A stretch of DNA of 64,000 nt from Agrobacterium tumefaciens. GTDB lineage: Bacteria; Pseudomonadota; Alphaproteobacteria; Rhizobiales; Rhizobiaceae. A program made the position numbers and the translations under genes. The stretch is taken from NCBI RefSeq assembly GCF_013318015.2, contig NZ_CP115841.1, positions 1,550,001 through 1,614,000 of the forward strand, written 5' to 3'. The notes below the pieces were generated by a model. It had not been told where the DNA came from and ran no database searches. It was given only the letters and a program-made list of their open reading frames with translations. Of the stretch, positions 35,032 to 51,012 are shown in pieces. Positions within the stretch are counted from its first letter, which is position 1. Each line of letters begins with the position of its first letter.

Positions 35032-35272
35032 GATTGTTCCTGAATGAAGAAGGGAGGGATGTCACGAAAGGCAGTTTGAAAACGCAACCGTCATTTTTGT
35101 CTTTGCTTTAACTTACCGCCGTATGAAACGGAACCGGTTTCTATCAAAGCGTATTCGGCCGCTATGCAACGTATCCGGCCAAATTTTGTTCCCCGCGCTT
35201 CGTTTCCTTTTTGTACTCATTTTTTCTTGGCCTCCCCTTCCCTTTGCGCGTGACTCCCTCCATATTTCGCGC

Positions 35273-38254
35273 ATGGCCAGATCACCCAAAAATTCCAAAC
35301 CCTCGAATTCCGGCTTCGAGGAAGCTCCGCAATCGTCGTTCGAAGGCGCGCCGCTCAGCGGCAGCGTTGCCGATTGGGTAAAGCAGCTCGAGGCGGAAGC
35401 CGAAGCCGGCTCGGTGGAAACCCAGCGCGAAGTCGCCTCGAAAGCTGGCAAGCACCGCAAGAAGATCGAGATCGAAGCGCGCAAGGAAGCGGAAAAAGCG
35501 GCCAACAAAACGGCTAAAAACACCACGGCTTCCAAGACAGCGCGCGGCGTTTCCATCGGCGCGTCGAGCGATCCAAAAACCCGCGCCGCCGCCGGTCTCA
35601 ATCCAGTGGCTGGCATGGACGTTTCCCTGGAGGAGGCGGCCAATCTCGCACCGGGTGCCGTCACCGCCACCGTCGAGGCGCTATCGGCGCTTATCGAGAG
35701 CGGCAATCCGCTGTTCAAGGACGGCAAGATGTGGACGCCGCACCGGCCGGCCCGTCCGCCGAAATCCGAAGGCGGCGTTACAATCCGCATGGACTCGGAG
35801 TATCAACCGGCAGGCGACCAGCCGACGGCGATTGCCGATCTCGTGGAAGGCATCAATTCCGGCGAGCGCAGCCAGGTCCTGCTCGGCGTCACCGGCTCCG
35901 GCAAAACCTTCACCATGGCCAAGGTGATCGAGGCAACCCAGCGCCCGGCCGTCATCCTTGCGCCCAACAAGACGCTGGCCGCGCAGCTCTATTCCGAGTT
36001 CAAGAACTTCTTCCCCGACAATGCGGTAGAGTACTTCGTCTCATATTACGATTATTATCAGCCGGAAGCCTATGTGCCGCGCTCCGACACCTTCATAGAG
36101 AAGGAATCCTCGATCAACGAACAGATCGACCGGATGCGTCACTCCGCGACCCGCTCGCTGCTGGAACGCGACGACTGCATCATCGTCGCTTCGGTTTCCT
36201 GCATCTATGGTATTGGCTCGGTGGAAACCTATACCGCCATGACCTTCCAGATGCAGGTGGGCGACGGGCTGGACCAGCGCCAGCTTCTGGCCGACCTTGT
36301 GGCCCAGCAATACAAGCGCCGCGACATGGATTTCCAGCGCGGCTCTTTCCGCGTGCGCGGCGATACCATCGAAATCTTCCCTGCCCACCTTGAGGATGCC
36401 GCCTGGCGCATCTCGATGTTCGGCGACGAAATCGATTCCATTACCGAATTCGACCCGCTGACCGGCCAGAAAACCGGCGATCTGCAATCCGTCAAGATCT
36501 ACGCCAATTCGCACTATGTCACCCCGCGCCCGACGCTGAACGGCGCGATCAAGTCGATCAAGGAAGAGCTGAGGGTCCGCCTCGCCGAGTTGGAAAAGGC
36601 GGGACGCCTGCTGGAAGCCCAGCGGCTGGAACAGCGCACACGTTACGACATCGAAATGCTGGAGGCGACCGGCTCCTGCGCCGGTATCGAAAACTATTCG
36701 CGTTATCTCACCGGCCGCAATCCCGGTGAGCCGCCGCCGACGCTGTTTGAATATATCCCTGATAATGCGCTGCTTTTTATTGACGAAAGCCACGTATCGG
36801 TTAGCCAGATCGGTGGCATGTATCGCGGCGACTTCAGGCGCAAGGCGACGCTGGCCGAATATGGCTTCCGCCTTCCCTCCTGCATGGATAACCGGCCGTT
36901 GCGCTTTGAGGAATGGGATGCGATGCGGCCGCTGACGGTCGCGGTTTCGGCCACCCCTGGCTCGTGGGAAATGGAACAGGCAGGCGGCGTCTTCGCCGAA
37001 CAGGTCATCCGCCCGACAGGACTCATCGATCCGCCGGTCGAGGTGCGCTCAGCCCGCAGCCAGGTGGACGATGTTCTCGGCGAAATTCGCGAGACCGCCG
37101 CTAAGGGTTACCGTACGCTCTGCACCGTGCTGACCAAGCGCATGGCTGAAGACCTGACCGAATATCTGCACGAACAGGGCGTTCGCGTGCGTTACATGCA
37201 CTCGGATATCGACACGCTGGAACGCATCGAGATCATCCGCGACCTGCGCCTTGGTGCCTTCGACGTGCTTGTCGGTATCAACCTTCTGCGCGAAGGCCTC
37301 GATATTCCAGAATGCGGTTTCGTCGCGATCCTCGATGCCGACAAGGAAGGCTTCCTCCGTTCGGAAACTTCGCTGATCCAGACCATCGGCCGCGCCGCCC
37401 GTAACGTCGACGGCAAGGTCATCCTTTATGCCGACAATATCACCGGCTCGATGAAGCGGGCGATGGAGGAAACCTCCCGCCGCCGCGAAAAGCAGATGGC
37501 CTATAACGCCGAACACGGCATCACGCCGGAATCGGTCAAGGCGAAGATCTCCGATATTCTTGATTCAGTTTATGAGCGTGATCACGTAAGGGCCGATATT
37601 TCAGGCGTTTCCGGCAAAGGCTTCGCCGATGGCGGCCATCTGGTCGGCAACAATCTGCAGTCCCATCTCAACGCGCTGGAAAAATCCATGCGCGATGCCG
37701 CAGCCGATCTGGACTTCGAAAAAGCCGCCCGCCTGCGCGACGAAATCAAGCGCCTCAAGGCCACCGAACTCGCCGTCATGGACGACCCGATGGCGAAGGA
37801 AGAGGCGAAATCGCTTGAGGGTGGCGGCAGAAGCAAGAAAAAAGAAACGAGCGCCCGCAACGGGTCGATCTCGCCTCTTGCGGGAGATATATCCGGCGGG
37901 ACAGAGGACGGTGCCGCTTCCGCAAACGAAAGTGGAAAATCTCTCTTCGCCAAACCTTCGCTGGACGAAATGGGTCCCGGCTCGGACACGGGCAAGCCGC
38001 TGTTCCGCAGGAACACGCTGGACGAGATGACCGTTGGCCGCACCGAGAAGCCGGTGCGTGGCGAAGTTCCCGGCAAACCCGAGACGGAAACCGGCAAACG
38101 TTTCTCACCGCTCATGGAAGGCCAGCCTGAGCGAACCAAGGACGATCCCCGCCCCCTCGTGCGCGGCAAGATCGGAGCGGGTTCCTATGAGGATGCCGGC
38201 GAACAGAAGCGCAAAAGCCGGACGAAGGGGAAGACGGGGCGTCCCGGTCGCTGA
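35273..38254 (+). CDS. uvrB: Excinuclease ABC subunit B
   Basis: DNA damage-recognition helicase of nucleotide excision repair, working with UvrA and UvrC. I start at the ATG at 35273 ([12 protein letters not shown]), giving 993 residues against about 670 in E. coli. Residues 1-165 are a charged extension. The core starts at [15 protein letters not shown], with Walker A GVTGSGKT near 204, the beta-hairpin region [16 protein letters not shown], Walker B DESHVSV near 504 and the UVR coiled coil ([24 protein letters not shown]) near 802-830. The last 160 residues are an extra tail with a duplicated LF..(S/T)LDEM motif and a repeat-derived segment at 864-880. I found no GTTC-N7-GTTC SOS box upstream. 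Confidence 0.96.
37864..37913 (+). repeat. Repeat-derived segment inside uvrB
   Basis: 50 bases matching without gaps (41 of 50 by eye) the right arm of the inverted repeat at 49572-49730. Here the sequence is read through in frame and encodes [17 protein letters not shown] (residues 864-880 of UvrB). The same frame of the intergenic copy reads SISPLEGEMSGRTEGG. Confidence 0.75.
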
Positions 38255-38285
38255 AGCGCAACGGCGCAATCTGGATAGACACCGC

Positions 38286-39254
38286 ATGCATCGAAAAAAT
38301 CTGGCGGCCTTATGCCTCGTCTTTTTCTCAAGCCCAGTCCTTGCCGGGCAGATTGAGGACGCCACCTTCCACAGCGCCGCCCTGAACGCACCGCTGCCCG
38401 TCAACATCTACCGACCGGATGGCACGCCGCCGGAAAACGGCTGGCCGGTGCTTTATCTCCTGCACGGCCATGATGGTGACCAGAACAGCTGGCGAGACCT
38501 CGGCAATATCGAAAAGACGCTGGACACGCTGATTGCGGCTGGCGCCATCCGCCCGCTGGTTATCGTCATGCCAGGCGTTAAAAACAGTTGGTACGTGGAT
38601 TCGGCCGCTGTCGGTGGTCCCGGCGATTACGAGACGGCCCTGACGGGCGATCTGCGCCATCAGGTGGAAAAAACGCTGCCGGTGCGAAAAGATCGCGAAG
38701 GGCGTGCCATCGCCGGGCTGTCCATGGGCGGTTTCGGCGCATTGCATCTGGCTTATGGCCACGAAGACCTCTATGGCGCAGTCGCCAGTCTGTCCGGCGC
38801 GATCTGGCAGAACGTGCCCGCCTCCGATCTCGACAAAACGCCCGCGGAACTCAAGCTCATTCAGGACAGCGCCTTCTTCCACCGCGTCGACCGCACTACC
38901 GTCACCAGCGGCATCGTGCTGCCCTCCACCGGCGATCACTTCTCCGGCGCCTTCGGCACGCCCTTCGATGCGAGTCTCTTCAATGAGAAGAACGTCTTCA
39001 CCCTTGTTGCACAGCACGTCGCCGAAAGCCAAGACTTGCCCGCCACCTATCTGACAGTTGGCGACGACGACGGCTTCTTCCTCTGGCGCGGCGCCATCGC
39101 CCTGCACGAAACGCTTCAGGCCGACAATCGCAAATCCCAATTGCGGATCACCGATGGCGATCACGTCTGGTCAGTGTGGAAAGTGTCAATTATCGACGCG
39201 CTGAAGTTCATCGATGGGGAATGGGACAAGGCAACGGACGTTGGGAAAGATTGA
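38286..39254 (+). CDS. Secreted esterase of the esterase D / S-formylglutathione hydrolase type
   Basis: 322 residues with a signal peptide (MHRKNLAALCLVFFSSPVLA). The alpha/beta hydrolase core shows LLHGHDGDQNSW (oxyanion region), the nucleophile elbow GLSMGGFG near residue 145, the acid region GDDDGF near 260 and the catalytic His in DGDHVWSVW near 293. The signal peptide argues for an extracytoplasmic esterase rather than the cytosolic detoxification enzyme. I start at 38286; the frame is open further upstream inside uvrB. Confidence 0.87.
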   Translation: MHRKNLAALCLVFFSSPVLAGQIEDATFHSAALNAPLPVNIYRPDGTPPENGWPVLYLLHGHDGDQNSWRDLGNIEKTLDTLIAAGAIRPLVIVMPGVKNSWYVDSAAVGGPGDYETALTGDLRHQVEKTLPVRKDREGRAIAGLSMGGFGALHLAYGHEDLYGAVASLSGAIWQNVPASDLDKTPAELKLIQDSAFFHRVDRTTVTSGIVLPSTGDHFSGAFGTPFDASLFNEKNVFTLVAQHVAESQDLPATYLTVGDDDGFFLWRGAIALHETLQADNRKSQLRITDGDHVWSVWKVSIIDALKFIDGEWDKATDVGKD

Positions 39255-39266
39255 CTGCCTACTCGA

Positions 39267-39701
39267 TTACCCAGCCTTATTCCCCGTGCGTTTCTTTCCA
39301 GCCTTCCCCGCGACATTTAACGCCACCGCCGCGCGGATCAGCGCCACCAGTGCCTCCACGTCGATCTCATCTCGCTCGTGAAAGTCGATGGCGCGTCGCG
39401 TATTGCCCTCAAGGCTCGAATTGAACAGGCCGGCCGGGTCTTCAAGCGATGCGCCCTTCGCAAACGTCATCTTCACGGCTGTCTTGTAGGTTTCGCCCGT
39501 GCAGATGATACCGGCATGTTCCCAGACGGGCACGCCGCGCCATTTCACCTCCTCCGTCACATCCGGATCGGCCTTCCTTATCAGCGCCCGGATGCGCGCA
39601 AGCGTCTCGCCACGCCAGTCGCCAAGCTCCGCGATCTTTCGATCGATGAGAACCGACGATGCAATCTCCTCCGCATCCTTGCTGTCAGTGTTTTTTGCCA
39701 T
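39267..39701 (-). CDS. DUF1801 (YdhG-like) domain protein
   Basis: 144 residues from the ATG at 39699-39701 (MAKNTDSKDAEEIASS). The DUF1801 core is visible: IRALIRKADPDVTEEVKWRGVPVWEHAGIICTGETYKTAVKMTFAKGASL. A Lys-rich C terminus follows. Members are small soluble proteins of unknown activity. The upstream open frame to 39827 is not part of the domain. Confidence 0.85.
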   Translation of the reverse strand: MAKNTDSKDAEEIASSVLIDRKIAELGDWRGETLARIRALIRKADPDVTEEVKWRGVPVWEHAGIICTGETYKTAVKMTFAKGASLEDPAGLFNSSLEGNTRRAIDFHERDEIDVEALVALIRAAVALNVAGKAGKKRTGNKAG

Positions 39702-39841
39702 AACGTCCTCCCGATTTTGCGTGCCAGTACTCCCGCTATCAGCATAAACCAAATTTTCATCTCGTCCCACGCGGAACCAAATCCGGCCTTCACCGTTTCT
39801 TCCCCGAACGAAACGTTCAGCATACAAAGGGAAGAAACATC

Positions 39842-40297
39842 ATGAAAATCAACGTCATCGCTCTCGCTGCCGCAGCAGCCCTCTCCTCTTCCGTGGCTTT
39901 TGCCCAGACGGCTGCGACTGCGCCTGCTGTTGGCGCCGATGCGACTTTGTCCGGTCCCGGCATCACCATGGGCACCAAGGCTAACGGCCCGCTGAAGTTC
40001 GTCAATGTCCAGAAAACCGACCTCACCGCCTCCCAGCTCGACGGTCTGGATATCTATAACGCCCAGAACGAAAACATCGGCGAAATCGAGGATGTCGTCA
40101 TCGGCGATGGCAAATCGGTGATCGGCCTCGTTGCCAGCGTCGGCGGTTTCCTCGGCATCGACAAGAGCTATGTGGTGCTCGACCCGGCCTCGGTTGCAGT
40201 GCACAACGACAACGGCACCTGGAAGGCCTATGTCGATACCACCAAGGAAGCGCTGCAGAACGCACCGAAGCTCGACTACGACAAGCTGGACGACTGA
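39842..40297 (+). CDS. Secreted PRC-barrel domain protein
   Basis: 151 residues with a signal peptide (MKINVIALAAAAALSSSVAF, cleavage near AFA-Q). The mature part is a PRC barrel: LDGLDIYNAQNENIGEIEDVVIGDGKSVIGLVASVGGFLGIDKSYVVLD. Such periplasmic PRC-barrel proteins are common in Rhizobiales; the function is unknown. It ends in a strong terminator. Confidence 0.9.
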   Translation: MKINVIALAAAAALSSSVAFAQTAATAPAVGADATLSGPGITMGTKANGPLKFVNVQKTDLTASQLDGLDIYNAQNENIGEIEDVVIGDGKSVIGLVASVGGFLGIDKSYVVLDPASVAVHNDNGTWKAYVDTTKEALQNAPKLDYDKLDD

Positions 40298-40319
40298 TTC
40301 CCCTGCAGTCGCAAGCTTG

Positions 40320-40347
40320 ACCCCCGCGATCCGTCGCGGGGGTTTTT
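40320..40347 (+). terminator. Terminator after the PRC-barrel gene
   Basis: A perfect stem ACCCCCGCGA/TCGCGGGGGT with a 4-nt loop, followed by TTTT, 23 bp past the stop. Confidence 0.93.
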
Positions 40348-40454
40348 CGTGTGTGGAATTTCGGCGCAGTATCCGACAATCCCTCTCTCACGACGCTTGC
40401 CTAGCTGCCCGGCTCTCGCCTATCTTCGGCGCGCAAGACACCAAGGATCGATGC

Positions 40455-41066
40455 GTGCCCACCAAAACTCTCTCTTCCCTCACCATCAGCGCTATGACGA
40501 TATTGCTGAGCACCCTTCCGCTATCAGCACAGTCAGCCGGCTGGAAACCAGCCGAGCAGATAAAAACCTATGCGATCAGCGGTGATACGGGCGGAGCGCT
40601 TTACCAGTCCATAGGCGAGCGTGGCCCGACTGCCGGTGTGCAGGCCATCGCCCACACCACCTTCAAGCTGACATGGCGGCGCGATTATCGTCCGCAACCG
40701 GACGGTGCCTGCGTACTGGCCACCGCCAAGCCAAATCTCACAATCATCTATACCTGGCCGAAAGCGCCGGCCAGATTGCCGCCCGCGGTCGCCGCCAGCT
40801 GGAAAACCTTTATTTCCGGTGTGGAAACCCATGAGCGCGTTCATGGCGAGCACATTCTCGACATGGTGCAGAAGATCGAGGCATTCAGCACCGGTCTGAG
40901 AGCGGAAAACGATCCGAAATGCCAGAAAGTGCGCGTTGTCCTTCAACAGCGGCTTGGTGAGCTATCCAACGAGCAGCGCCAACGCGGACGCGATTTCGAC
41001 CGGGACGAGCTTTCGCCCGGTGGCCGCGTGCATCAGCTCATTCTGGCGCTCGTCAACGGTCCCTGA
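40455..41066 (+). CDS. DUF922 family secreted protein (putative Zn-peptidase-like)
   Basis: 203 residues from a GTG start at 40455 with AAGGA upstream, giving a signal peptide (TLSSLTISAMTILLSTLPLSAQSAG). An in-frame ATG at 40494 would shorten it. The mature region carries ETHERVHGEHILDM near residue 135, an HExxH-type motif typical of DUF922, whose members are predicted periplasmic metallopeptidases. Two cysteines (in GACVLA and PKCQKV) may pair. Activity is inferred only from the motif. Confidence 0.8.
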   Translation: MPTKTLSSLTISAMTILLSTLPLSAQSAGWKPAEQIKTYAISGDTGGALYQSIGERGPTAGVQAIAHTTFKLTWRRDYRPQPDGACVLATAKPNLTIIYTWPKAPARLPPAVAASWKTFISGVETHERVHGEHILDMVQKIEAFSTGLRAENDPKCQKVRVVLQQRLGELSNEQRQRGRDFDRDELSPGGRVHQLILALVNGP

Positions 41067-41084
41067 GAACCCAGGGAGAAACGG

Positions 41085-41687
41085 CTATTCCGCCGCCTCG
41101 CCTTTCAGCAGCGGTTCGGAGAGCGATATGCTCTCCAGCTCGTAGGAATAGCCTTCCAGCATCGTATAGGCCTGCTCGATCGCCTCTATCTGCGCTTCCG
41201 CATTGCGGATGGCTTCGGCGATGGACTGGCTGCGCGCACGCAACATGGAACTCAAAACATCGGTCTCCGGCTTTCTGCCCAGCCGGTCCATATGTTTGCG
41301 CACTCGCGTGCGGTGACGCTCCAGTTCCAGAATGTGAAAGCGGCTTTTCAGGATATCGTCGGTCAGCTTGCGGCGCATGGCGGCCACTGGGTCGAAGCTG
41401 CCGGGCTCGCGCTCGTCCAGAATGAATTCGTTGACCAGAGTTTCCAGCATCAGCAGCCCTTTGAGGTCCTTGGCATCGGCAAGCTGCGGATCGTAACCGG
41501 TATCGTCGAACACCTTGCGGCGCACCGGATCCTTCAAAAGCTCGTAAGCGGTTTGCAGGCGTGCGAATTGGTCGGTATCACCCCCGCTGTCGGGATGGGC
41601 GGCTTTCGCCACCTTCCGGTAAGCGGACTTGATCGCCGCCTCGTCGGCATCACGCTCCACGCCAAGCAAAACATAGGGATCGATCAC
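41085..41687 (-). CDS. J-domain (DnaJ-like) protein
   Basis: 200 residues. An N-terminal J domain (MIDPYVLLGVERDADEAAIKSAYRKVA) has the HPD tripeptide at residues 31-33, which stimulates DnaK ATPase. The rest (about 70-200) is a charged helical region with no Gly/Phe or zinc-finger domain, so it is a class C J protein with an unknown client. It converges with the DUF922 gene across an 18-bp gap. Confidence 0.92.
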   Translation of the reverse strand: MIDPYVLLGVERDADEAAIKSAYRKVAKAAHPDSGGDTDQFARLQTAYELLKDPVRRKVFDDTGYDPQLADAKDLKGLLMLETLVNEFILDEREPGSFDPVAAMRRKLTDDILKSRFHILELERHRTRVRKHMDRLGRKPETDVLSSMLRARSQSIAEAIRNAEAQIEAIEQAYTMLEGYSYELESISLSEPLLKGEAAE

Positions 41688-42004
41688 TAAAACACCTTCA
41701 AACGCAAACTGTTACCGCATGCCATACGCCACCCCCGTGCGGCTCGCGCACAGATCATAAGCGAATTCCGCCCGCGCGGCACCCCCGCGCCGGCGCAAAA
41801 GCCCTTGATCCTCAAATTTGTCGGACCCATGGCGACTATAATCACGGGCGGGACAAAATTGTGGAAAGTCATGGCAAAACACGCCGGGCCAAGCTGCCTA
41901 CCCATGCGGAAAACCGTGCAACCCGCAGGTTTTACGGTGCTTATGGTGGAACGGCTCCAACGGGTGTAAGCTTGGCTTTTGGATCTGAAGGGAGGGACGA
42001 TCCG

Positions 42005-42358
42005 ATGCCGCAAACCATTACCCAGACAGTGACGGATTATGTGCACGCCATGGCCTATGCGGATGAGGGCCTGATGCGTGATGTTTTCGATCCGCGCGCC
42101 AGCATCGTCGGGACGTTCCAGGGTGAAACGGAATGGCTTTCACTGGAGGACTTCGCCGAGCAGATACGGAAAAGCGAACGCGGCCTGCCCGATCACGACC
42201 CCGTCTTCGAAATCCTCGGCATCGACAAGGAAGGCGACAGCGCGTCCGTGAAGCTGACGACGAGTTTCGACGGCATGGATTTTAGCGAATACTTGTCCTT
42301 GCTGGAGCGCGACGGCAACTGGGCAATCGTGCACAAGCTATATCACATCAAGCCATAG
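42005..42358 (+). CDS. NTF2-like / putative lumazine-binding family protein
   Basis: 117 residues from the ATG at 42005 (MPQTITQTVTDYVHAMAYAD), preceded by an excellent GGGAGGG ribosome-binding site. The fold shows YADEGLMRDVFDPRASIVG and a final strand NWAIVHKLYHIKP, matching the SnoaL-like/lumazine-binding-type NTF2 family. The ligand is unknown. It stands alone between the J-protein promoter and tRNA-Thr. The 41688-42004 gap before it has no other recognisable feature. Confidence 0.82.
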   Translation: MPQTITQTVTDYVHAMAYADEGLMRDVFDPRASIVGTFQGETEWLSLEDFAEQIRKSERGLPDHDPVFEILGIDKEGDSASVKLTTSFDGMDFSEYLSLLERDGNWAIVHKLYHIKP

Positions 42359-42413
42359 GCGTTGTGCGAATGCAGGAATAATAGCGGGGAAATGGCCAAG
42401 CCATTGAAAATAC

Positions 42414-42489
<76 letters not shown>

Positions 42490-42696
42490 AATCCAGTGCC
42501 TTGCCAACTATCAGATTCTCACTTCGTGTAAAGCAAAAATTGATTGCGCGCCGTTGGGAGACCTCTTTTCCACACCGTACCTGTGGGTTTCAATCACCAG
42601 GTCGCGGCAAAAGGCCTGCAAAATAAGCGAAGTATTTACGCGATGTAGCTAAAATGGCGATAATTCATAACCATCCCACCGGGAATAACGCATCGC

Positions 42697-44436
42697 ATGC
42701 GCGCAAGCATACAGAAAATCCAACTAACCGGTACGATCGTCATAGCGGTAAGTTCCATCTTGTTGGCAACCCTTGCCGCCCTGCCGAGCGTTTCCAGTTA
42801 CTTACGCTACCGGACCAATGCGCAGCAACTCAGCCGCTTCGAAACAGCCCTCCAGTCCGCATGGCTGGTATCGGCCGAGCGTGGTCCTGCCAATAATTTG
42901 ATGGGCGCGTCTTCCCCCGATGCAAAACTGGTCCAGGAGCTGGCCGCAGCGCGCAAGGCGACGGACGACAAGCTGGTGGAACTCGAAAACTCTTTTGCCG
43001 CGGAAATCAGGGCGCAGCCAGAATTGGCAAAATCGCTGGTCGATACACGCCGAAAACTGGCGCAATCCCGAGAAGCGGTCGATCAGGTTGCTGCACTTCC
43101 GGAATCCGCGCGCAGCTACACGGCGATGTCCAACGCAATTTTTGCGATGTTCAAGGCGGCGGACAGCGTCAACATGCTGCGTGGCAAGACCGCTCGCGCG
43201 ATTATCAAGGTAACGCCCAATGTAGCGATCGACATCGCCATGACCGGCACGGCCGGAGTGATGCGGGACCGGATCGGTCGCCTCGGTTCCTACGTGGTCA
43301 TGAGCCTGCGGGCGAACAGGCAGGACAGGCTGAGCCTCCGCGCCAAATTCGACACGGAAATACAGAGCCTCACACTGCTGAAATCGTCGCTGACGAACTA
43401 CACCGCCGCTTACCTGTCCACACCACGCGTCGATGCAGCGTTTCACGATATTGAAATCTTCTATTTCGGCCAGGCACTTCCCTATGCGCAGAATACGATT
43501 GCGATGGTGGTGCCGTCCGCGCAGCCAAGCGTTCGCGAATTCTCCGAAAACTACATCAAGGGCATGCGTTCCTCGAGCACGTTGCGCGACCTTATTCTCG
43601 CCGAAACACGGGCAAGGATAGAAAGGAACAAGGAACAGGCGTTGATCTATGGTGGAACGTCTCTCCTCCTCGCTCTCATCGCGGTTCTGGTATTGCTGCG
43701 GCTTGCATCGGTTTACAGAACGGCACTGTTCCGCCCCATGCAATCCGTCCAGACGCAGATCGCCGCAATCGCCGCTGGCGATCTTTCAGGAGCCCTGTAT
43801 CAGGACAAGGCTGCTCCGGAAGTGAAGAAAATGTTCAAGGAACTGGATTTCCTGCGCGAGCAGCTTCGCCAGAAGGAAGAAATGGAAAAGCAGCAGTCCG
43901 CGCTGGCCGAACAATTACGCACGCTTTCAGAAACAGATGCCTTGACCGGTGTGTCCAATCGCCGTGCGTTGGAAAAGACCGTTCGTGCCATATTGAGCGG
44001 CGAGGAGCAGTTGCAGGCGCTTGGCGTGATGATTGTCGACATCGACCACTTCAAATCCATCAACGACCGTTATGGCCATGCCATGGGCGACCTCGCGCTA
44101 CAGAAGACAGCGACTCTTTTAAGAGGCGCCCTCCGTAAAAACGATATTCTGGCGCGCTATGGCGGCGAGGAATTCGTGGTCGTGTTGCAGGATGTCAGCC
44201 ACGCGACGGCGACCGCCACCGCCGACCGCCTGCGCCGGCTGATTGAAGCCCAGATCATTGATGAACAAAGCGGGCTGTCACTGACGGCAAGTTTCGGCGT
44301 GGTCTGGCAGGAGGCACGGGCGATCAACAGCTGGGACGAGCTGATCGCAATTGCCGACGACCGACTTTATGAGGCCAAGCGTGCGGGCCGCAACCGGGTG
44401 TGGGCGACCTACTTCCCCAAGGTTGCCAACGGCTAG
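42697..44436 (+). CDS. Membrane-bound diguanylate cyclase
   Basis: 579 residues. Span one lies near 12-33, followed by a large, mostly helical periplasmic sensor region (to about 312) with SAERGPANNLMG reminiscent of nitrate-sensing NIT domains. Span two is about 315-340, then a HAMP-like linker and coiled coil, then a GGDEF domain with RYGGEEFVVV (GGEEF at 489-493). RKND at 480-483, five residues before it, is an intact RxxD inhibitory site, so the enzyme should make c-di-GMP with product feedback. The sensed ligand is not known. Confidence 0.93.
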   Translation: MRASIQKIQLTGTIVIAVSSILLATLAALPSVSSYLRYRTNAQQLSRFETALQSAWLVSAERGPANNLMGASSPDAKLVQELAAARKATDDKLVELENSFAAEIRAQPELAKSLVDTRRKLAQSREAVDQVAALPESARSYTAMSNAIFAMFKAADSVNMLRGKTARAIIKVTPNVAIDIAMTGTAGVMRDRIGRLGSYVVMSLRANRQDRLSLRAKFDTEIQSLTLLKSSLTNYTAAYLSTPRVDAAFHDIEIFYFGQALPYAQNTIAMVVPSAQPSVREFSENYIKGMRSSSTLRDLILAETRARIERNKEQALIYGGTSLLLALIAVLVLLRLASVYRTALFRPMQSVQTQIAAIAAGDLSGALYQDKAAPEVKKMFKELDFLREQLRQKEEMEKQQSALAEQLRTLSETDALTGVSNRRALEKTVRAILSGEEQLQALGVMIVDIDHFKSINDRYGHAMGDLALQKTATLLRGALRKNDILARYGGEEFVVVLQDVSHATATATADRLRRLIEAQIIDEQSGLSLTASFGVVWQEARAINSWDELIAIADDRLYEAKRAGRNRVWATYFPKVANG

Positions 44437-44454
44437 GCGGCCCGGAGCGGTAGA

Positions 44455-45564
44455 TCAGATCAGATCGAGCGTCATAACGACAGGGCAATGGTCGGAAGCC
44501 TTGGGGCGGTCCCAGCCGGTGCGCGGATAACGATCCACCTCCTGCCCCGGCGGAAAGACCGTCCTGTAAGGCTGGCCAGCGCGGATGATTTCGGGAACCC
44601 TTGTCGCATTGATCTGCGCAAGATGCGGGGAAAGCCAGATATAATCGAGCTGGCAGAGATGCTGTTCCTGTGGCCCGCGCGAATGATAGAGCGTCCAGCG
44701 ATCCATGACGTCACGGCGCGACATCGGATTGGTCACAAAATCATCCGCCGTGAAGATATCGAGCGCGCTCCGCTCCTCTTCCAACGGCGTAAAGCTGTAG
44801 CCGCTGCGCCGGTCGCCGGAAATCGAAATGCGTTCCTGATAATCATTCATGTCGCCGCAGATGGCAAAATTCTTGTTGCGGGTATTGTTTGCGCCCCAGC
44901 GGTTTTCGATGATGCGGCGAACGGCCATGGCTTCCGCCTCGCGAATCGGCATGGTGGCGAGCCGGGCATCTATGGCGTCACGGGCATTGGTCATGGATTT
45001 GAAATGCGTGACGTAAAGCGTCAGCGGTTTGCCGCCGATCCTCAGATCGATTTCCAGACAATCGCGTTTGAAAATCTTGTCGTCTATCTGGTTGGTCGCG
45101 GCAAGTGCGGGATTGAAGAGATCGAGATTGCGGTAGGTTAGCGCGGCGTGGCTCTTGATGTCGATGACCTCGATCTTGTCGCCGTCTCGGGTCTGCTCGC
45201 GCATGACGACGGCGACATCGATGCCGCGACTGTCATTGCCCTCGACCAGATATTTCTGCAGATAGCCGTTGCCGACCATGCGGTAGAGATAGCCATATTC
45301 GAAAGCCTGCAGGGCAGCCATGTTGTCGACTTCCTGCAGGCAGAGAATGTCGGCATCCGCATCCGCAATGGCCAGCGCCGAAAGTTGCCGCGTATCGTCT
45401 GTGGAAGAGACTGCCCGCGCACTTTCCAGCGCCTGATAGGTTGCCTCGTCCCTGATATCGAAAAGCTGGATCGCCCTGTCGCGCCGCGTCTGGTTGCGAA
45501 AACCGGTAAAGTCGAAACGGGTGAGAAGATTTTCGATATTGAAGGTGGCGAGCCGAAGCGACAT
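44455..45564 (-). CDS. Endonuclease/exonuclease/phosphatase (EEP) family protein
   Basis: 369 residues, a metal-dependent phosphohydrolase of the DNase I/EEP fold. Motifs: ATFNIENLLTRF (metal site), LCLQEVDN with the catalytic Glu, GNDSRGIDVAVV, HFKSM, GDMNDYQE, and the final SDHCPVVM with the catalytic His. There is no signal peptide. The substrate (nucleic acid or phosphoester) cannot be told. A second, shorter EEP gene lies at 51840. The start has AGGA upstream. Confidence 0.88.
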   Translation of the reverse strand: MSLRLATFNIENLLTRFDFTGFRNQTRRDRAIQLFDIRDEATYQALESARAVSSTDDTRQLSALAIADADADILCLQEVDNMAALQAFEYGYLYRMVGNGYLQKYLVEGNDSRGIDVAVVMREQTRDGDKIEVIDIKSHAALTYRNLDLFNPALAATNQIDDKIFKRDCLEIDLRIGGKPLTLYVTHFKSMTNARDAIDARLATMPIREAEAMAVRRIIENRWGANNTRNKNFAICGDMNDYQERISISGDRRSGYSFTPLEEERSALDIFTADDFVTNPMSRRDVMDRWTLYHSRGPQEQHLCQLDYIWLSPHLAQINATRVPEIIRAGQPYRTVFPPGQEVDRYPRTGWDRPKASDHCPVVMTLDLI

Positions 45565-45685
45565 GTTTCATTCCTGTTGCTGGAATGGGAGCTTAGCCGC
45601 TCCCGTTCGGTCTCGCCAGTGGCCTGTCGCGTCGATCAGATTTCCCTATTCGCGATGTCGGATTTTATGTGCCGGGATATTCCCC

Positions 45686-45720
45686 ACCCTCATTCCTGTG
45701 CCCGTCACAGGAATGAGGGT
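45686..45720. repeat. Perfect 15-bp palindrome behind the ABC operon
   Basis: ACCCTCATTCCTGTG, loop CCCGT, CACAGGAATGAGGGT: a perfect stem with no T-run. It lies between the ABC ATPase stop and the EEP start, so it may work as a Rho-independent-like stop or RNA stabiliser. Palindromes of this type are widespread in rhizobial genomes. Confidence 0.75.
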
Positions 45721-45731
45721 GCAAGCAAATG

Positions 45732-46760
45732 CTAAAGACGCCACGCCGCACGAATCGCAACCGGCAGCTGGTCACCGACCGCAACCGATTCTCGAGAATA
45801 AGCCCGAAGCGCCTGCCCGTCCGGCAGGTCGAGACGCAGGGCATAACGCTCGCCCTCGTAGAGAACCGAGGTCACGGTGCAGGTGATTCCATCCGCATCC
45901 CGCACCACGTCCTGCGGCCGCACGAGAATATCCGCCCGTGGTAATTGCCCACCGTTATCCATCGCTGTGCGGAGCGCGTCCCAGTCAATATCCCGCGAAG
46001 AACCTTCCGGCACCGGCACGGAGAGAATGGCGCCCTGCCCCACCAGCGAGCCGACAAGACGCCCCTCGGGTCGTGCATAAAGCTCGGCGGGTGGCGCGAC
46101 CTGAAGCAGCTTGCCCTGAGACATGACGGCGACATCGGTTGCCAGCGCCATGGCTTCCGCCTGATCGTGGGTGACATAGATCATCGTCGCGCCGGAGCGG
46201 ATGTGGAACTCGCGAAAGGTCTCCTCCATCTCCTGCCGCAAATGCCGGTCGAGATTGGCGAGCGGCTCGTCGAGCAGCACCACATCGGGTTCAGTGACGA
46301 GGCAGCGAGCCAGCGCCACGCGCTGCCGCTGGCCACCGGAAAGCTGGGCGGGACGGCGGTCCGCAAAGCCTTCAAGGCGTACGGCTGCCAGCGCTTGGGC
46401 CACCTTCTCGCGATATTTCTCGCCGGAAATGCCGCGAACCTTCAGGGGATAGCCGGCATTGTCGGCAACCGACATGTGCGGCCAGAGCGCATAGGACTGG
46501 AACACCATCGCCATGTTGCGCCGCTCCGGCGGCACCATGCTGCCTGCATCGGCCAGCACCCGCTCGCCGAGCAGGATGGAGCCATCAGTCGGTTGCTCGA
46601 AACCGGCGATCATGCGCAACACCGTCGTCTTGCCGCAGCCGGAAGGCCCAAGCAACGCGAGGAAACCTCCCTCACGCACCGTGAGCGAGACGTCGTCAAC
46701 GGCGGGTTTCGACCCGGCCCCAAAGCTTTTCGTCAGACGATTGAGGATCAGTTTCGCCAA
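45732..46760 (-). CDS. ABC transporter ATPase, iron(III)/spermidine type
   Basis: 342 residues; powers the importer formed with the two genes upstream. Walker A GPSGCGKTT is at 38-46, the Q loop MVFQSYALWPHMS follows, then signature LSGGQRQRVALARCL, Walker B VVLLDEPLANLD and H-loop YVTHDQAEAMA. A C-terminal TOBE-type domain begins near 240. It overlaps the permease gene by 13 bp, so translation is coupled. Family FbpC/PotA; ferric iron is the likely cargo but 2-aminoethylphosphonate or other anions are possible. Confidence 0.93.
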   Translation of the reverse strand: MAKLILNRLTKSFGAGSKPAVDDVSLTVREGGFLALLGPSGCGKTTVLRMIAGFEQPTDGSILLGERVLADAGSMVPPERRNMAMVFQSYALWPHMSVADNAGYPLKVRGISGEKYREKVAQALAAVRLEGFADRRPAQLSGGQRQRVALARCLVTEPDVVLLDEPLANLDRHLRQEMEETFREFHIRSGATMIYVTHDQAEAMALATDVAVMSQGKLLQVAPPAELYARPEGRLVGSLVGQGAILSVPVPEGSSRDIDWDALRTAMDNGGQLPRADILVRPQDVVRDADGITCTVTSVLYEGERYALRLDLPDGQALRAYSRESVAVGDQLPVAIRAAWRL

Positions 46761-48442
46761 GGGACCACTCCTTTCGGCAGATAGCGCCCCAGAATTTCGA
46801 GCAGCAGCATGAGGAAAATCACCATGATGACGACAAGCACCGAAAGTGCGGAGGCAAGATCGAAGCTGCCGCTGTCATCGAGGTTATAGATGAGCACACC
46901 GAGCGTCTGCGTGCCGGCGGACCAAAGGAGCGCCGAAACCGTCAGCTCATTGCAGGCGATCAGGAAAACGAGGATGACGGAAGCGCCAGCCGCAGGCCCG
47001 ACCAGCGGCAGGATGATGTCCTTCAACCGCCGCCAGAAACCGGCGCCCGAAAGCCTTGCCGCCTCTTCCAGCGACGGATCGAATTGCAGGAAGGCGCTGA
47101 CCATCGGTTTGAGGCTGACGGCGAAAAAGGAGGAAAAATAGGCGAGCAGAATGATCCAGATCGTGCCGTAAAGCGTGATGCCGAGCAGCGGAATGGGGGC
47201 CGCGAACAACAGGACGAAGGATACGGAAATCACCACACCTGGCAGCGCATAGGGAATATCCACCAGCGCCGACAGCAGGAACATGAAGCGGCTTTTGCCG
47301 CGCACCAGGAAATAGGCGGTCAACACCGTCACCGCAAGCAGGCAAAGGGATGTGACCGTCGCCAGAAACAGCGAGTTGCGGAAGGCTGTGCGGGTCACGC
47401 TCTGCCGGTAGAGCAGCTCCTCATAGGCGTGCATCGTAGCGGTCTTGAGACTGAGCGGCACGCCATAGGCGGGGGCAAGCGAGCTTGCCACCAGCGCAGC
47501 AAGTGGTGCAACCAGCATGAAGAACAGCACGAGCCAAAGGACAAGCTCAGCCACTACACGCCAGCGCGACAGCTTGAAAGTCGCGGCCTTGCCGGAAAGA
47601 CCGATGATGCGATAGTCCCTGCCCTTCATTGCCCGCTCTTGCAGCGCAAGACCGGCCACGGAGATGATGGCGATCATGGTCGAGAGAATGGCGATATCGC
47701 CGAAGGTGCTCGCACCAAAACTGGCGAAGCGGCTGTAGATCAGCGTCGGCAGGGTGAAGATCGAGGCCGGAATACCGAGGATCGCCGGAATACCGAAATT
47801 GCCGACATTGGACACAAACGAGATCGCCGCCCCGGCGATCAATCCCGGCGTCGAAAGCGGCAGGATGATATCGAACAGCACGCGGCGAGGCGAAGCACCG
47901 GAAAGCTTGGCCGCCTCGATGCCATCCTGCGGCAAAGCGAGCAGGCCGGCGCGCAGCGACAGATAGACGAGCGGCGCATGCTGCACGCCGAGCAAAAGCG
48001 CGATACCGGCAATGGAATAGAGCGGTTGCGGCGAGCCCATGGGCGGCGCAAGGCCGATGGCCTTTAACAGCGTGCTCGACGGGCCGGTCATGCCGATCCA
48101 CGACAGCGCCGTCACCTGCGGCGGGATCATCATAGGCAGCATGAAGAGGAAGCTTAAGATCGACTTGCCGCGTATGTCGCAAAGCGTCAGCGCCAGCGCG
48201 AAGCCCCCGCCGATCATGAGTGAAATCAGCATGCCGAAAAAAGAGGTGGACAGCGTGTTCAGCGCCGCATCCCAAAGGGCGGGATCAGCCAGCAATCGCC
48301 ATATGTCACCGTTGAGTGACGAAACAATGCCGGTATAGGCGAGCCGCCCGAGCGGCAGGGCGCTGAGCGCAAAAACGACGCTCACCACAAAAGGAAACAG
48401 CCAGCGCGGCTGGCTGTTTCCATAGGCACTTGATCGGGACAT
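46748..48442 (-). CDS. ABC transporter permease, FbpB-like double permease
   Basis: 564 residues with two BPD_transp_1 domains fused, about 12 spans. The first half carries the EAA loop EAAKLSGASPRRVLFDIILPLSTPGLIAG near residue 177 and the second EEAARLSGAGFWRRLKDIILPLVGP near 460, both typical of binding-protein-dependent importers that touch the ATPase. It lies 9 bp after the binding-protein gene and overlaps the ATPase gene. Confidence 0.95.
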   Translation of the reverse strand: MSRSSAYGNSQPRWLFPFVVSVVFALSALPLGRLAYTGIVSSLNGDIWRLLADPALWDAALNTLSTSFFGMLISLMIGGGFALALTLCDIRGKSILSFLFMLPMMIPPQVTALSWIGMTGPSSTLLKAIGLAPPMGSPQPLYSIAGIALLLGVQHAPLVYLSLRAGLLALPQDGIEAAKLSGASPRRVLFDIILPLSTPGLIAGAAISFVSNVGNFGIPAILGIPASIFTLPTLIYSRFASFGASTFGDIAILSTMIAIISVAGLALQERAMKGRDYRIIGLSGKAATFKLSRWRVVAELVLWLVLFFMLVAPLAALVASSLAPAYGVPLSLKTATMHAYEELLYRQSVTRTAFRNSLFLATVTSLCLLAVTVLTAYFLVRGKSRFMFLLSALVDIPYALPGVVISVSFVLLFAAPIPLLGITLYGTIWIILLAYFSSFFAVSLKPMVSAFLQFDPSLEEAARLSGAGFWRRLKDIILPLVGPAAGASVILVFLIACNELTVSALLWSAGTQTLGVLIYNLDDSGSFDLASALSVLVVIMVIFLMLLLEILGRYLPKGVVPWRN

Positions 48443-48451
48443 GCCGCTATA

Positions 48452-49435
48452 TCAGCCCTTGGAGCCGAAAATATCGGAGAAGGTCTTCAGATCCTGCTCT
48501 GAGTTCTTCAGCGCGTCCGCGGCGTTGAGCGGCAGGACCTTGAGCTTGTCGCGGGCGGGGAAACCTTCCGGCATGCCAGCGTCAGCGCGCGCGGGGATGT
48601 AGCCGAGCTTGACGAAGCCCTGCTGGCCTTTTTCCGAAAGCACGTAGTCGACGAACTTCTTAGCGGCTTCCTCATGCTTGGTACCCTTGAGGATCGCGAC
48701 CGGTTCGGTCACGGCCGAAACGCCCTCTTCCGGGAAAACGAACTCCACCGGGGCGCCCTTGGCCTTTTCGCGGATAGGCATGTAGTCGACGACAACGCCG
48801 TAAGCCTTCTCACCTGATGCAACCGACTTCAGCACCGCGCCGTTACCGCCACCGGAAATGGCTTCATTGGCCTTCAGCTGCTTGTAATAGTCCCAGCCGA
48901 GGCCGTTGGCAGCGGCCAGCGTCTGCGCGTGGATCAGCGCTGCACCAGAGGTCAGCGGGCTCGGCATGGTCACCAGACCCTTGGCTTCCGCCTTGGCAAG
49001 ATCCTTCCAGCTCGTCGGCTTCATCGCAGCGGCAGTGTTATACATGATGCCGGTGGTGATGAGCTTGGTGGAATAATAATAGCCGTCCGCATCGTAGAGC
49101 GAGGCGTCGATGTTCTTCGCTTCCGGCGACTTGTGGGCCATAAGCTGGCCAGCCTGCTTCATACGCTCGAGTGTGACGGTGTCGGCGATCAAGAGCACGT
49201 CGGCAACCGGATTGCCGGCGCTGATCTCAGCCATCAGCTTGGCCATGATCTTCGGCGTTCCGTCACGCACCCATTCGACTTCGATACCGGGATTGGCGGC
49301 CTTGAAACCATCAACGGTCGCCTGCGCGTCCTCGTTCGGCTGGCTGGTATAAAGCACCAGGTCGGCAGCATTGGCAGCGGTGGCGATGAAGCCGAGCGAT
49401 ACGATGGCGGTAAAAGCGGAAAGCAGCGTTTTCAT
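48452..49435 (-). CDS. Periplasmic binding protein of an iron(III)-type ABC importer
   Basis: 327 residues with a signal peptide (cleavage after ANA at 23). The mature sequence DLVLYTSQPNEDAQATVDGF..GIEVEWVRDGTPKIMAKL is typical of FbpA-like or PotD-like proteins. Conserved tyrosines lie in YDADGYYYSTKLITTG, the region where FbpA binds ferric iron, but the usual pair cannot be assigned with certainty. First gene of the importer operon. A dyad 36 bp upstream may regulate it. Confidence 0.9.
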   Translation of the reverse strand: MKTLLSAFTAIVSLGFIATAANAADLVLYTSQPNEDAQATVDGFKAANPGIEVEWVRDGTPKIMAKLMAEISAGNPVADVLLIADTVTLERMKQAGQLMAHKSPEAKNIDASLYDADGYYYSTKLITTGIMYNTAAAMKPTSWKDLAKAEAKGLVTMPSPLTSGAALIHAQTLAAANGLGWDYYKQLKANEAISGGGNGAVLKSVASGEKAYGVVVDYMPIREKAKGAPVEFVFPEEGVSAVTEPVAILKGTKHEEAAKKFVDYVLSEKGQQGFVKLGYIPARADAGMPEGFPARDKLKVLPLNAADALKNSEQDLKTFSDIFGSKG

Positions 49436-49470
49436 AGGTCCAGTCCCTGTTGTTTCGTGGGACCGCTAAA

Positions 49471-49489
49471 ACATGATTGCATAACATGT
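49471..49489. promoter_or_regulatory. Candidate operator upstream of the ABC importer
   Basis: ACATG, 9-nt spacer, CATGT, centred about 45 bp before the binding-protein ATG, and partly palindromic in the spacer. It could be a regulator binding site; no known Fur, Irr or RirA consensus was matched. Confidence 0.35.
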
Positions 49490-49571
49490 ATGTGACAGGC
49501 AGGATTTTAGGGGTGTGATCTGTTGGGGTCGTCGCGATTAGGAGTAACAATGCCCCTTGGCGCTTGCGGCT

Positions 49572-49730
49572 CACCCCCCTCTGCCCTGCCGGGCATCTCC
49601 CCCTCAAGGGGGGAGATCGGCAAGAGGCGCTGGCACAACTTCATTTTCAACTGTTGCGATACGCGATACCTTAACCGCGAGTCGATCTCCCCCCTTGAGG
49701 GGGAGATGTCCGGCAGGACAGAGGGGGGTG
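49572..49730. repeat. Long inverted repeat (48-bp arms)
   Basis: The left arm 49572-49619 and right arm 49683-49730 are reverse complements at 46 of 48 positions, with a 63-bp spacer. Each arm itself contains an inner hairpin (CTCCCCC...GGGGGAG). It lies between the aminotransferase stop and the importer promoter. One arm resembles the segment inside uvrB. Confidence 0.93.
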
Positions 49731-49767
49731 AAACCGCACCCTCCGTCAATACCGTAAGCCGCCGCCC

Positions 49768-51012
49768 TCAAATCGCCGGAACCACTTCGGTCGTCTCCGC
49801 CTGCGCCGTCGCAATCAATCGGCCAAGCCGCTTCATGCCTTCCTCGATCATCGCCTCATTGGCGCAGGAGAAGCTTATGCGCAGCGTGTTCGTGCCCGAG
49901 CCATCGGCAAAGAAGGCGCGACCCGGAACGAAGGCGACCTTCTCCGTTGCGATGGATTTTGCCAGCAGTGCGGCGCCATCCATGCCTTCCGGCAGGGTGA
50001 CCCAGATGAACATGCCGCCTTCCGGCTTGGTCCAGCGCGTGCCCTTCGGCATGTATTTGTCGAGCGCAGCCAGCATCGCATCGCGGCGGGCGCTGTAGGC
50101 GGCCTTGATCTTGGCGACCTGTTTGTCGAAGCCGCGCGAAGCGACACGTTCGATGGCGATCTGGTTGATCGTCGAGGAATGCAGGTCTGCGGCCTGCTTC
50201 ATCAGCACCAGCTTGCGGATAACAGGCGCAGACGCGACGATGTAACCGACACGAAGGCCGGGTGCGAGCGTCTTGGAGAAGCTGCCGCAATAGATGGTGC
50301 GGGTGTTCTCGATGCCGCCCGAGCGGGCAATGTCGAGCGCCATGATCGGCGGAACCGCTTCGCCGTCGTAACGCAGCGACTGATAGGCGGCGTCTTCGAT
50401 GACGGCGATATCCAGCTCGTCAGCCAGCGCCAGAACCTTTTCGCGGCCGGCAAGATCAACGGTTTCCCCGGTCGGATTGGAGAAATCGGCAGAGAGATAA
50501 GCGAACTTCACCGCGCCGCCGAGCTTGGCCGCGGTTTCGCGGTAAGCTTCGGGCGTGCGGTTGCCGCCGGGATTGAGCTGGTCGTAATTCGGCTCATAGG
50601 CGTTGAAGGCGGAAAGTGCGCCGAGATAGGTCGGCCAGGTTACCAGCGCGGTATCCTTCGGCGACAGGAACAGCTTGCCGAGGTAGTCGAGACCCTGCTG
50701 CGAACCCGAAACGATGAAGACGTTGTCGGCAGTGCATTCAATGCCGATCTCGGCCATTTCGCCCGCCAGCCATTCGCGCAGCGGCTTGTAACCTTCGCTC
50801 ACCGAATATTGCAGCGCCGAGTTGACCTGCGAACCCGAAAAAATTTCCGCATAAGCCTGCTGGAACTCCTCTGCGGGGAAAAGAGCCGGGTCCGGAATAC
50901 CGCCGGCAAAGGAAATGATATCGGGCTGCTCGAGCAGCTTCAGCAGCTCGCGGATTTCAGACGCTTTCATGCGCGACGAGCGCGTGGCGAAAATTTGTTC
51001 CCAATCAAGCAT
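49768..51012 (-). CDS. PLP-dependent aminotransferase (fold type I, class I/II)
   Basis: 414 residues; catalyses amino-group transfer using pyridoxal phosphate. Start MLDWEQIFATRSSRMKASEIRELLKLL, then SFAGGIPDPALFP. The PLP-binding lysine is K247 in YCGSFSKTLAPGLRVGY, with SNPTGETV and D/Y cofactor contacts before it. It resembles 2-aminoadipate/MocR-like aminotransferases but lacks the GntR HTH. The substrate is unassigned. No operon partner is apparent; the inverted repeat follows its stop. Confidence 0.93.
   Translation of the reverse strand: MLDWEQIFATRSSRMKASEIRELLKLLEQPDIISFAGGIPDPALFPAEEFQQAYAEIFSGSQVNSALQYSVSEGYKPLREWLAGEMAEIGIECTADNVFIVSGSQQGLDYLGKLFLSPKDTALVTWPTYLGALSAFNAYEPNYDQLNPGGNRTPEAYRETAAKLGGAVKFAYLSADFSNPTGETVDLAGREKVLALADELDIAVIEDAAYQSLRYDGEAVPPIMALDIARSGGIENTRTIYCGSFSKTLAPGLRVGYIVASAPVIRKLVLMKQAADLHSSTINQIAIERVASRGFDKQVAKIKAAYSARRDAMLAALDKYMPKGTRWTKPEGGMFIWVTLPEGMDGAALLAKSIATEKVAFVPGRAFFADGSGTNTLRISFSCANEAMIEEGMKRLGRLIATAQAETTEVVPAI

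Follow-up and report, generated by a model that had tools for sequence, protein, structure and literature searches.

Fifty bases in the C-terminal tail of the UvrB reading frame of Agrobacterium tumefaciens are very probably one arm of a dispersed palindromic repeat of rhizobia (RIME-like, and also MITE/REP-like), which would have entered a linker of the protein in an ancestor and been retained because the frame was left open and the stretch tolerates change. We found that the repeat is dispersed, that the linkers of UvrB tails but not the UvrB core match repeats, that the presence of the arm varies among relatives, that its frame is constant and that one insertion site in cobN is empty in a close relative. 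The first-pass annotation had proposed the capture of an intergenic repeat within uvrB, as a rhizobial case of a repeat turned into protein sequence in the manner known from Rickettsia. The tail matches, the varying presence, the constant frame and further copies in RibD, CobN and FtsY support this proposal, with three corrections: one arm was captured and not the whole element, the window's own copy is diverged, and the phenomenon, rhizobial as stated, is not a single case, many tails and other proteins being affected. Throughout, the window is the whole 64,000-nt (64-kb) stretch of DNA that was analysed.

The palindromic repeat and its arm in uvrB

The features of the window are listed in Table 1. 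The longest ORF of uvrB begins at 35123, upstream of the MARSPK start used here, and the captured arm comes after the UVR motif and ahead of the conserved blocks in the C-terminal part of the protein.

Table 1. Positions of the features discussed, in window coordinates.
Feature	Position	Strand	Basis
uvrB, 993 aa from MARSPK start	35273..38254	+	Pfam UvrB_inter, UvrB, Helicase_C, ResIII, UVR
Last domain recognised ahead of the tail: UVR motif (UvrB/UvrC motif)	37667..37762	+	Pfam, residues 799-830
Hypervariable linker 1 of the UvrB tail, site of repeat capture in many relatives	37799..37939	+	Alignments, translation, tail matches against core control
Arm of the repeat captured in uvrB, identical to the intergenic copy at 43/53 positions; read as 17 residues	37861..37913	+	Ungapped match, arm search, translation
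Tail, C-terminal part, containing conserved blocks (17-residue block ... GSYED ... KTGRPGR), downstream of the insert	38003..38251	+	Invariant alignment columns
tRNA gene	42417..42489	-	Rfam search
Palindromic element (RIME-like), intergenic; arms 49572-49619 and 49678-49730	49572..49730	.	Local match, genome copies, fold

In a scan of the 64-kb window, the 50-mer at 37864-37913 was identical to 49681-49730, in the right arm of the repeat, at 41/50 positions without gaps, exactly the figure that had been counted by eye, and the runner-up ungapped placement on the same strand reached 27/50. On the opposite strand, the partner arm at 49572 gave 38/50 and the next placement 28/50. The match can be extended to 53 nt (37861-37913 against 49678-49730); with 43/53 identical positions the window's uvrB copy is diverged, whereas some relatives hold copies of 52/52 to 55/55. 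Translation of both places bore out the shared frame described earlier: the intergenic arm reads ESISPLEGEMSGRTEGG, and the uvrB arm is read as 17 residues, 6 of which deviate from consensus; their numbering as residues 864-880 is correct given a translation start at 35273. Folded alone, the window's uvrB arm was no better than its shuffles (z = -0.23), and the intergenic arm (z = -0.92) and the perfect copy of Shinella (z = -1.61) were weakly better. An arm that has no fold advantage and has kept its frame is as expected of an old capture. The AlphaFold model of UvrB (31 sequences) had a mean pLDDT of 36.6 and was not used for judging disorder of the tail.

The repeat itself is a 159-nt inverted repeat flanked by two minus-strand ORFs (48452-49435 and 49768-51012). 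A 171-nt element around it folds into a single, long hairpin structure (-126.9 kcal/mol, z = -13.5), as does a Rickettsia palindromic element (RPE), and the two arms, inverted and each about 50 nt long, pair in the fold, as do the terminal inverted repeats of MITEs. The window's own genome (6.0 Mb) gave 34 matches to the 171-nt element with both strands counted; tallied from the match list, these amount to some 15 places with a near-full element and 3 with fragments. No Rfam family matched the repeat, and the Rfam search of 37000-50500 gave just a tRNA. The label RIME is used for a presumed resemblance.

Repeats in UvrB tails and in rhizobial genomes

We collected 209 tails from overlapping sets (80 named loci, 39 of the same genus and 90 from a family draw), which gave 179 unique tails and, after five without motifs were dropped, 174. 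The named loci are the best matches to the window's tail, which biases them in its favour. Less biased is the family draw, in which 90 of 287 matching genomes were taken as the top-scoring ones plus 20 from further genera. At E<=1e-4, 128/174 tails matched DNA outside uvrB in a pool of 0.656 Mb, against 1/870 equally long control windows taken from the last 1800 nt of the cores of the same genes; at E<=1e-3 the counts were 133/174 and 6/870. Among the tails of the family draw, 45/72 matched at E<=1e-3 and 42/72 at 1e-4, rows identical to other rows being counted elsewhere and not among the 72. The matched places (n = 76) lay mostly outside ORFs called by a home-made caller (66 outside, 10 inside), and 63% of the pool is inside such ORFs.

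All twelve linker stretches sampled matched outside uvrB at E<=0.01, in 1 to 15 places each (0.78 Mb searched), and they represent about ten repeat families, since two of the twelve are both orientations of the window's repeat and two share a matched place. For the linker stretch of L130, an unclassified isolate, a copy with 94.5% identity over 91 nt lies shortly after the end of uvrB. That of R. vallis is matched in R. esperanzae DNA at 49/50, and for that of R. johnstonii 3841 the genome of this strain gives 19 matches, the uvrB copy included, and the window's genome none. In 115 aligned rows, linker 1 is 18 to 84 residues long; it is short in G009, G024 and G025, and unrelated peptides fill the same position in relatives. 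Comparing UvrB tails across Rhizobiaceae had been suggested as a check on the capture; the arm is indeed present in some and absent in others, sometimes with another repeat in the same linker.

Arm matches were carried by 56 of the 179 tails, 66 in all (57 forward and 9 reverse), in a search that admits weak matches (score >= 20) and counts L123 twice for one interrupted arm. All 57 forward arms are read in the single frame ESISPLEGEMSGRTEGG, and 51 of them have at least 80% identity over at least 40 nt. Three forward copies (L189, L191 and L202) lie in a second linker closer to the C-terminus, again in the same frame; arms in two different linkers imply at least two captures that are independent by position. 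Perfect arms occur in Shinella granuli (55/55), L264 (54/54) and the same-genus tails L053 (53/53), L038 and L040 (both 52/52). Among 45 carriers with ungapped inserts (990 pairs), insert identity was flat, with a median of 0.84-0.86 per class over core identities from 80 to 100%, and 100% identical inserts were found between genomes whose cores are just 84-86% identical. The identity of the insert does not follow that of the gene. On a tree of the uvrB core (177 rows, 48 with an arm in linker 1), the arm requires at least 28 changes of state, a count that does not separate gain from loss, against a mean of 42 and a minimum of 36 in 100 label shuffles. Arm presence is thus partly inherited. 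Among the tails compared, no near-identical filled and empty pair was found for uvrB; the clean pair is that of cobN.

Capture of a repeat had also been expected to go with many dispersed copies. With a 75-nt query, 11-77 arm matches per genome were found in 10 of 14 chosen genomes, and genome-wide there was none in G009, G024 and G025, which are of the same genus and have short uvrB linkers. R. deserti gave a single match, its own near-perfect uvrB copy (52/53), and is the nearest thing to an exception to the pattern in which the arm follows the repeat. This sole match in the genome sequence searched (G044, C2:213427-213479) may be a fossil or part of a transferred gene. In PLSDB the arm was present in 160 plasmid records; of the 60 listed, 54 have the match in a stretch free of annotated features and 6 are unannotated, the gene table used being incomplete. 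In the family draw, 193/297 genomes had a repeat match. A segment conserved in relatives lacking the repeat would have spoken against capture: among 90 family genomes, the tail arm was carried by 19/69 with the repeat and 0/21 without it (hypergeometric p = 0.003). For this comparison, repeat status was read by hand from the genome search with three candidates scored per genome, and serves for presence or absence; the match is weak in one of the 19, and among the 90 tails one is cut and three are very short. All 19 have at least 4 repeat matches, the tail copy itself counting as one. By the home-made caller, 31/74 arm places in repeat loci are inside an ORF, several of these being small or 5' extensions by eye, so that "intergenic" holds as a majority statement. 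The repeat is dispersed and mostly intergenic in Rhizobiaceae, as are elements of the RIME type; copies were found in the window's family and on rhizobial plasmids, and its host is not Rickettsia, the host of RPEs.

Insertions in RibD, CobN and FtsY

Scanning the loci around repeat copies returned five uvrB loci and four sites in three other kinds of gene, confirmed by Pfam. The whole element is in frame in FtsY of Xaviernesmea oryzae, at two sites in CobN of R. johnstonii 3841 and in RibD of R. mesosinicum. As with RPEs, unrelated conserved genes carry in-frame insertions (one arm in UvrB, and RibD, CobN and FtsY), and orthologues free of the insert are found at the same site (CobN site 2, RibD of PDB 3zpc, and FtsY). 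The arms are in the same relative phase in 21/21 cases in RibD and CobN together, 1/4 in FtsY and 8/32 elsewhere, the sequences not being independent; the Rhizobium FtsY copies differ in arm phase from those of RibD and CobN.

The window genome's own RibD carries the element (G000:C1:824700-824897) in an open frame of 456 aa. In an alignment of 15 genomes, from which the Shinella RibD is absent as its anchor was missed, 11 have the element and R. anhuiense a rearranged remnant; it is missing from R. ruizarguesonis, N. huautlense and G010, of which N. huautlense and G010 retain a few possible remnant residues. The residues flanking the insert are four apart in the solved RibD (PDB 3zpc) and 70 apart in that of the window's genome. 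The RibD insert is predicted to be unstructured: in the AlphaFold model (mean pLDDT 68.7), residues 251-300 have a pLDDT of 26-33 by tens, between well-modelled flanking blocks (231-240 and 301-320) at 86-94. Three RibD copies have other sequence nested inside the element or in place of part of it. These nested or part-replaced palindromes are in L303, L304 and L310, and in L303 and L310 the nested or replacing sequence matches a second repeat family, that of the R. johnstonii 3841 linker.

In CobN, both full inserts are missing from R. ruizarguesonis (92-97% identical by segment) and from R. anhuiense. Site 2 is cleanly empty in R. ruizarguesonis, where the gene is shorter by about 180 nt and the flanks match, and it is also empty in R. 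anhuiense. In the one clean pair, that with R. ruizarguesonis, about 180 nt were gained with no clear target duplication by eye. At site 1 there is a remnant in R. anhuiense and a short diverged stretch in R. ruizarguesonis. FtsY arms, recognisable or degenerate, occur in Rhizobium and Xaviernesmea and in part in N. huautlense; by eye, none was seen in four Agrobacterium-group genomes and Shinella. In Shinella granuli, the full element occurs twice in CobN (L324) and once in RibD (L305).

Origin of the arm and relation to known elements

The most likely account is that a MITE/REP-like element inserts randomly and that its copies persist where frame and fold survive, and the captured peptide most likely has no specific function. 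The element would spread by a transposition-like process of an inferred agent at random sites, and insertions that are out of frame or break a domain would be purged. In an ancestor, an arm landing in the linker that joins the UVR motif to the conserved C-terminal blocks would have been nearly neutral, and such insertions might then decay, be deleted, or be replaced and overwritten by other repeats. A long variable tail with conserved blocks downstream may alone make the UvrB tail tolerant. Selection for the peptide seems improbable to us, be it for a length or acidity that UvrB would require of its linker or for some role of the peptide itself. It would fit the single frame of every forward copy found, the conserved blocks downstream and the near-perfect copy that R. 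deserti retains with no other copy in its genome; however, a constant frame is already expected from purging alone, linker 1 varies in length as given above and is short in three same-genus genomes, the window's copy is off consensus at the 6 residues noted, and relatives have unrelated peptides at this position. We regard as very unlikely that the uvrB arm acts as DNA or RNA (a hairpin, a binding site or mRNA processing) and not as protein, for the exceptional stability of the hairpin belongs to the intact element, whereas lone arms have no or weak excess over shuffles. Chance similarity of GC-rich, low-complexity coding sequence was considered as well, the sequences being short and GC-rich, and was rejected as practically negligible on the runners-up of 27-28/50, partner arm aside, and the single match among 870 core controls.

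Random insertion with persistence in tolerant places leaves room for a tentative addition, which we consider possible though doubtful: the uvrB linker might be a hotspot, re-entered, or refreshed by recombination with intergenic copies, more than other tolerant linkers. A repair protein might then be rebuilt in each lineage from resident repeats, perhaps since excision genes or proteins are exposed to hairpin DNA, a suggestion we hold equally loosely. The number of state changes on the core tree, the identical arms in genomes with dissimilar cores, the copies of all twelve sampled stretches outside uvrB with their striking diversity in one linker, and the REPs reported for uvrA genes and for uvrB of R. 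conorii (PMC3733652) point that way. Against it, the changes are fewer than under shuffled labels, so that presence is inherited to a good extent, they may be losses, and RibD, CobN and FtsY are hit too.

Protein-coding palindromes were reportedly called unique to Rickettsia by Ogata et al. in 2002, and a later study is said to describe them in Wolbachia, both according to their titles. RPEs are 105-146 bp in size (PMC2229807), RPEs and other elements have been described as fused in frame to genes (PMC10969869, PMC2229807), and a similar process has been thought conceivable in other prokaryotes (PMC10969869). Like an RPE, the element described here is palindromic, hairpin-forming, dispersed, about 150-200 nt long and in frame in conserved proteins; unlike RPEs, it resides in large GC-rich genomes of another taxon, UvrB usually has one arm of it, and many repeat families share one linker. 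We would class it as working like an RPE and would not file it among the RPEs. RIMEs are dispersed intergenic repeats of rhizobia with a conserved secondary structure (PMC2573895); by that description our repeat is likewise dispersed, intergenic and rhizobial, but it has copies inside proteins as well, whereas RIMEs are intergenic by name. It also resembles the bacterial MITEs with ORFs, which are small, have inverted repeats and contribute open frames that are fused with ORFs of the host (PMC2229807, PMC10969869); in the CobN pair, a target duplication was not clear by eye. REPs inside genes, many of them in DNA repair, have been reported at two sites of uvrB in R. conorii, and also in uvrA and recB genes, those in recB of X. 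campestris and X. oryzae being at about the same site (PMC3733652). The REPs of R. conorii uvrB are prior art for repeats in uvrB; the GTAG/CGTC-tagged REPs of that paper are by name families other than the rhizobial repeat, and its main text lacks the word Agrobacterium, its rhizobial section being on Bradyrhizobium (PMC3733652). Among the open-access literature matches listed, titles and abstract openings contained no description of in-frame repeat capture in rhizobia. What is new here is Rhizobiaceae as hosts and one linker common to many repeat families.

The same process as that of protein-coding palindromes is found in UvrB, RibD, CobN and FtsY of Rhizobiaceae, and UvrB offers a natural series with a single linker and many different repeats. 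As hundreds of Rhizobiaceae genomes can be compared, insertion sites, frame choice, decay and replacement become measurable. Moreover, repeat-derived peptides in conserved enzymes can mislead gene models and domain boundaries.

Some minor observations concern uvrB and its linker. Second copies of the 3' end of uvrB lie outside its frame at seven loci, as might result from replacement or duplication of the tail (L136, 5474-5635; L142, 5693-5788 and 6006-6098; L212, L204, L076, L139 and L099 (weak)). The uvrB frame of L149 (G030) is broken within linker 1, into a 951-aa and then a 236-aa frame, beside an ambiguous residue. Finally, an R. lentis gene annotated as a sugar ABC transporter substrate-binding protein (H61, NZ_CP071455.1, 66960-67049) matches the arm-adjacent part of the R. 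deserti uvrB linker.
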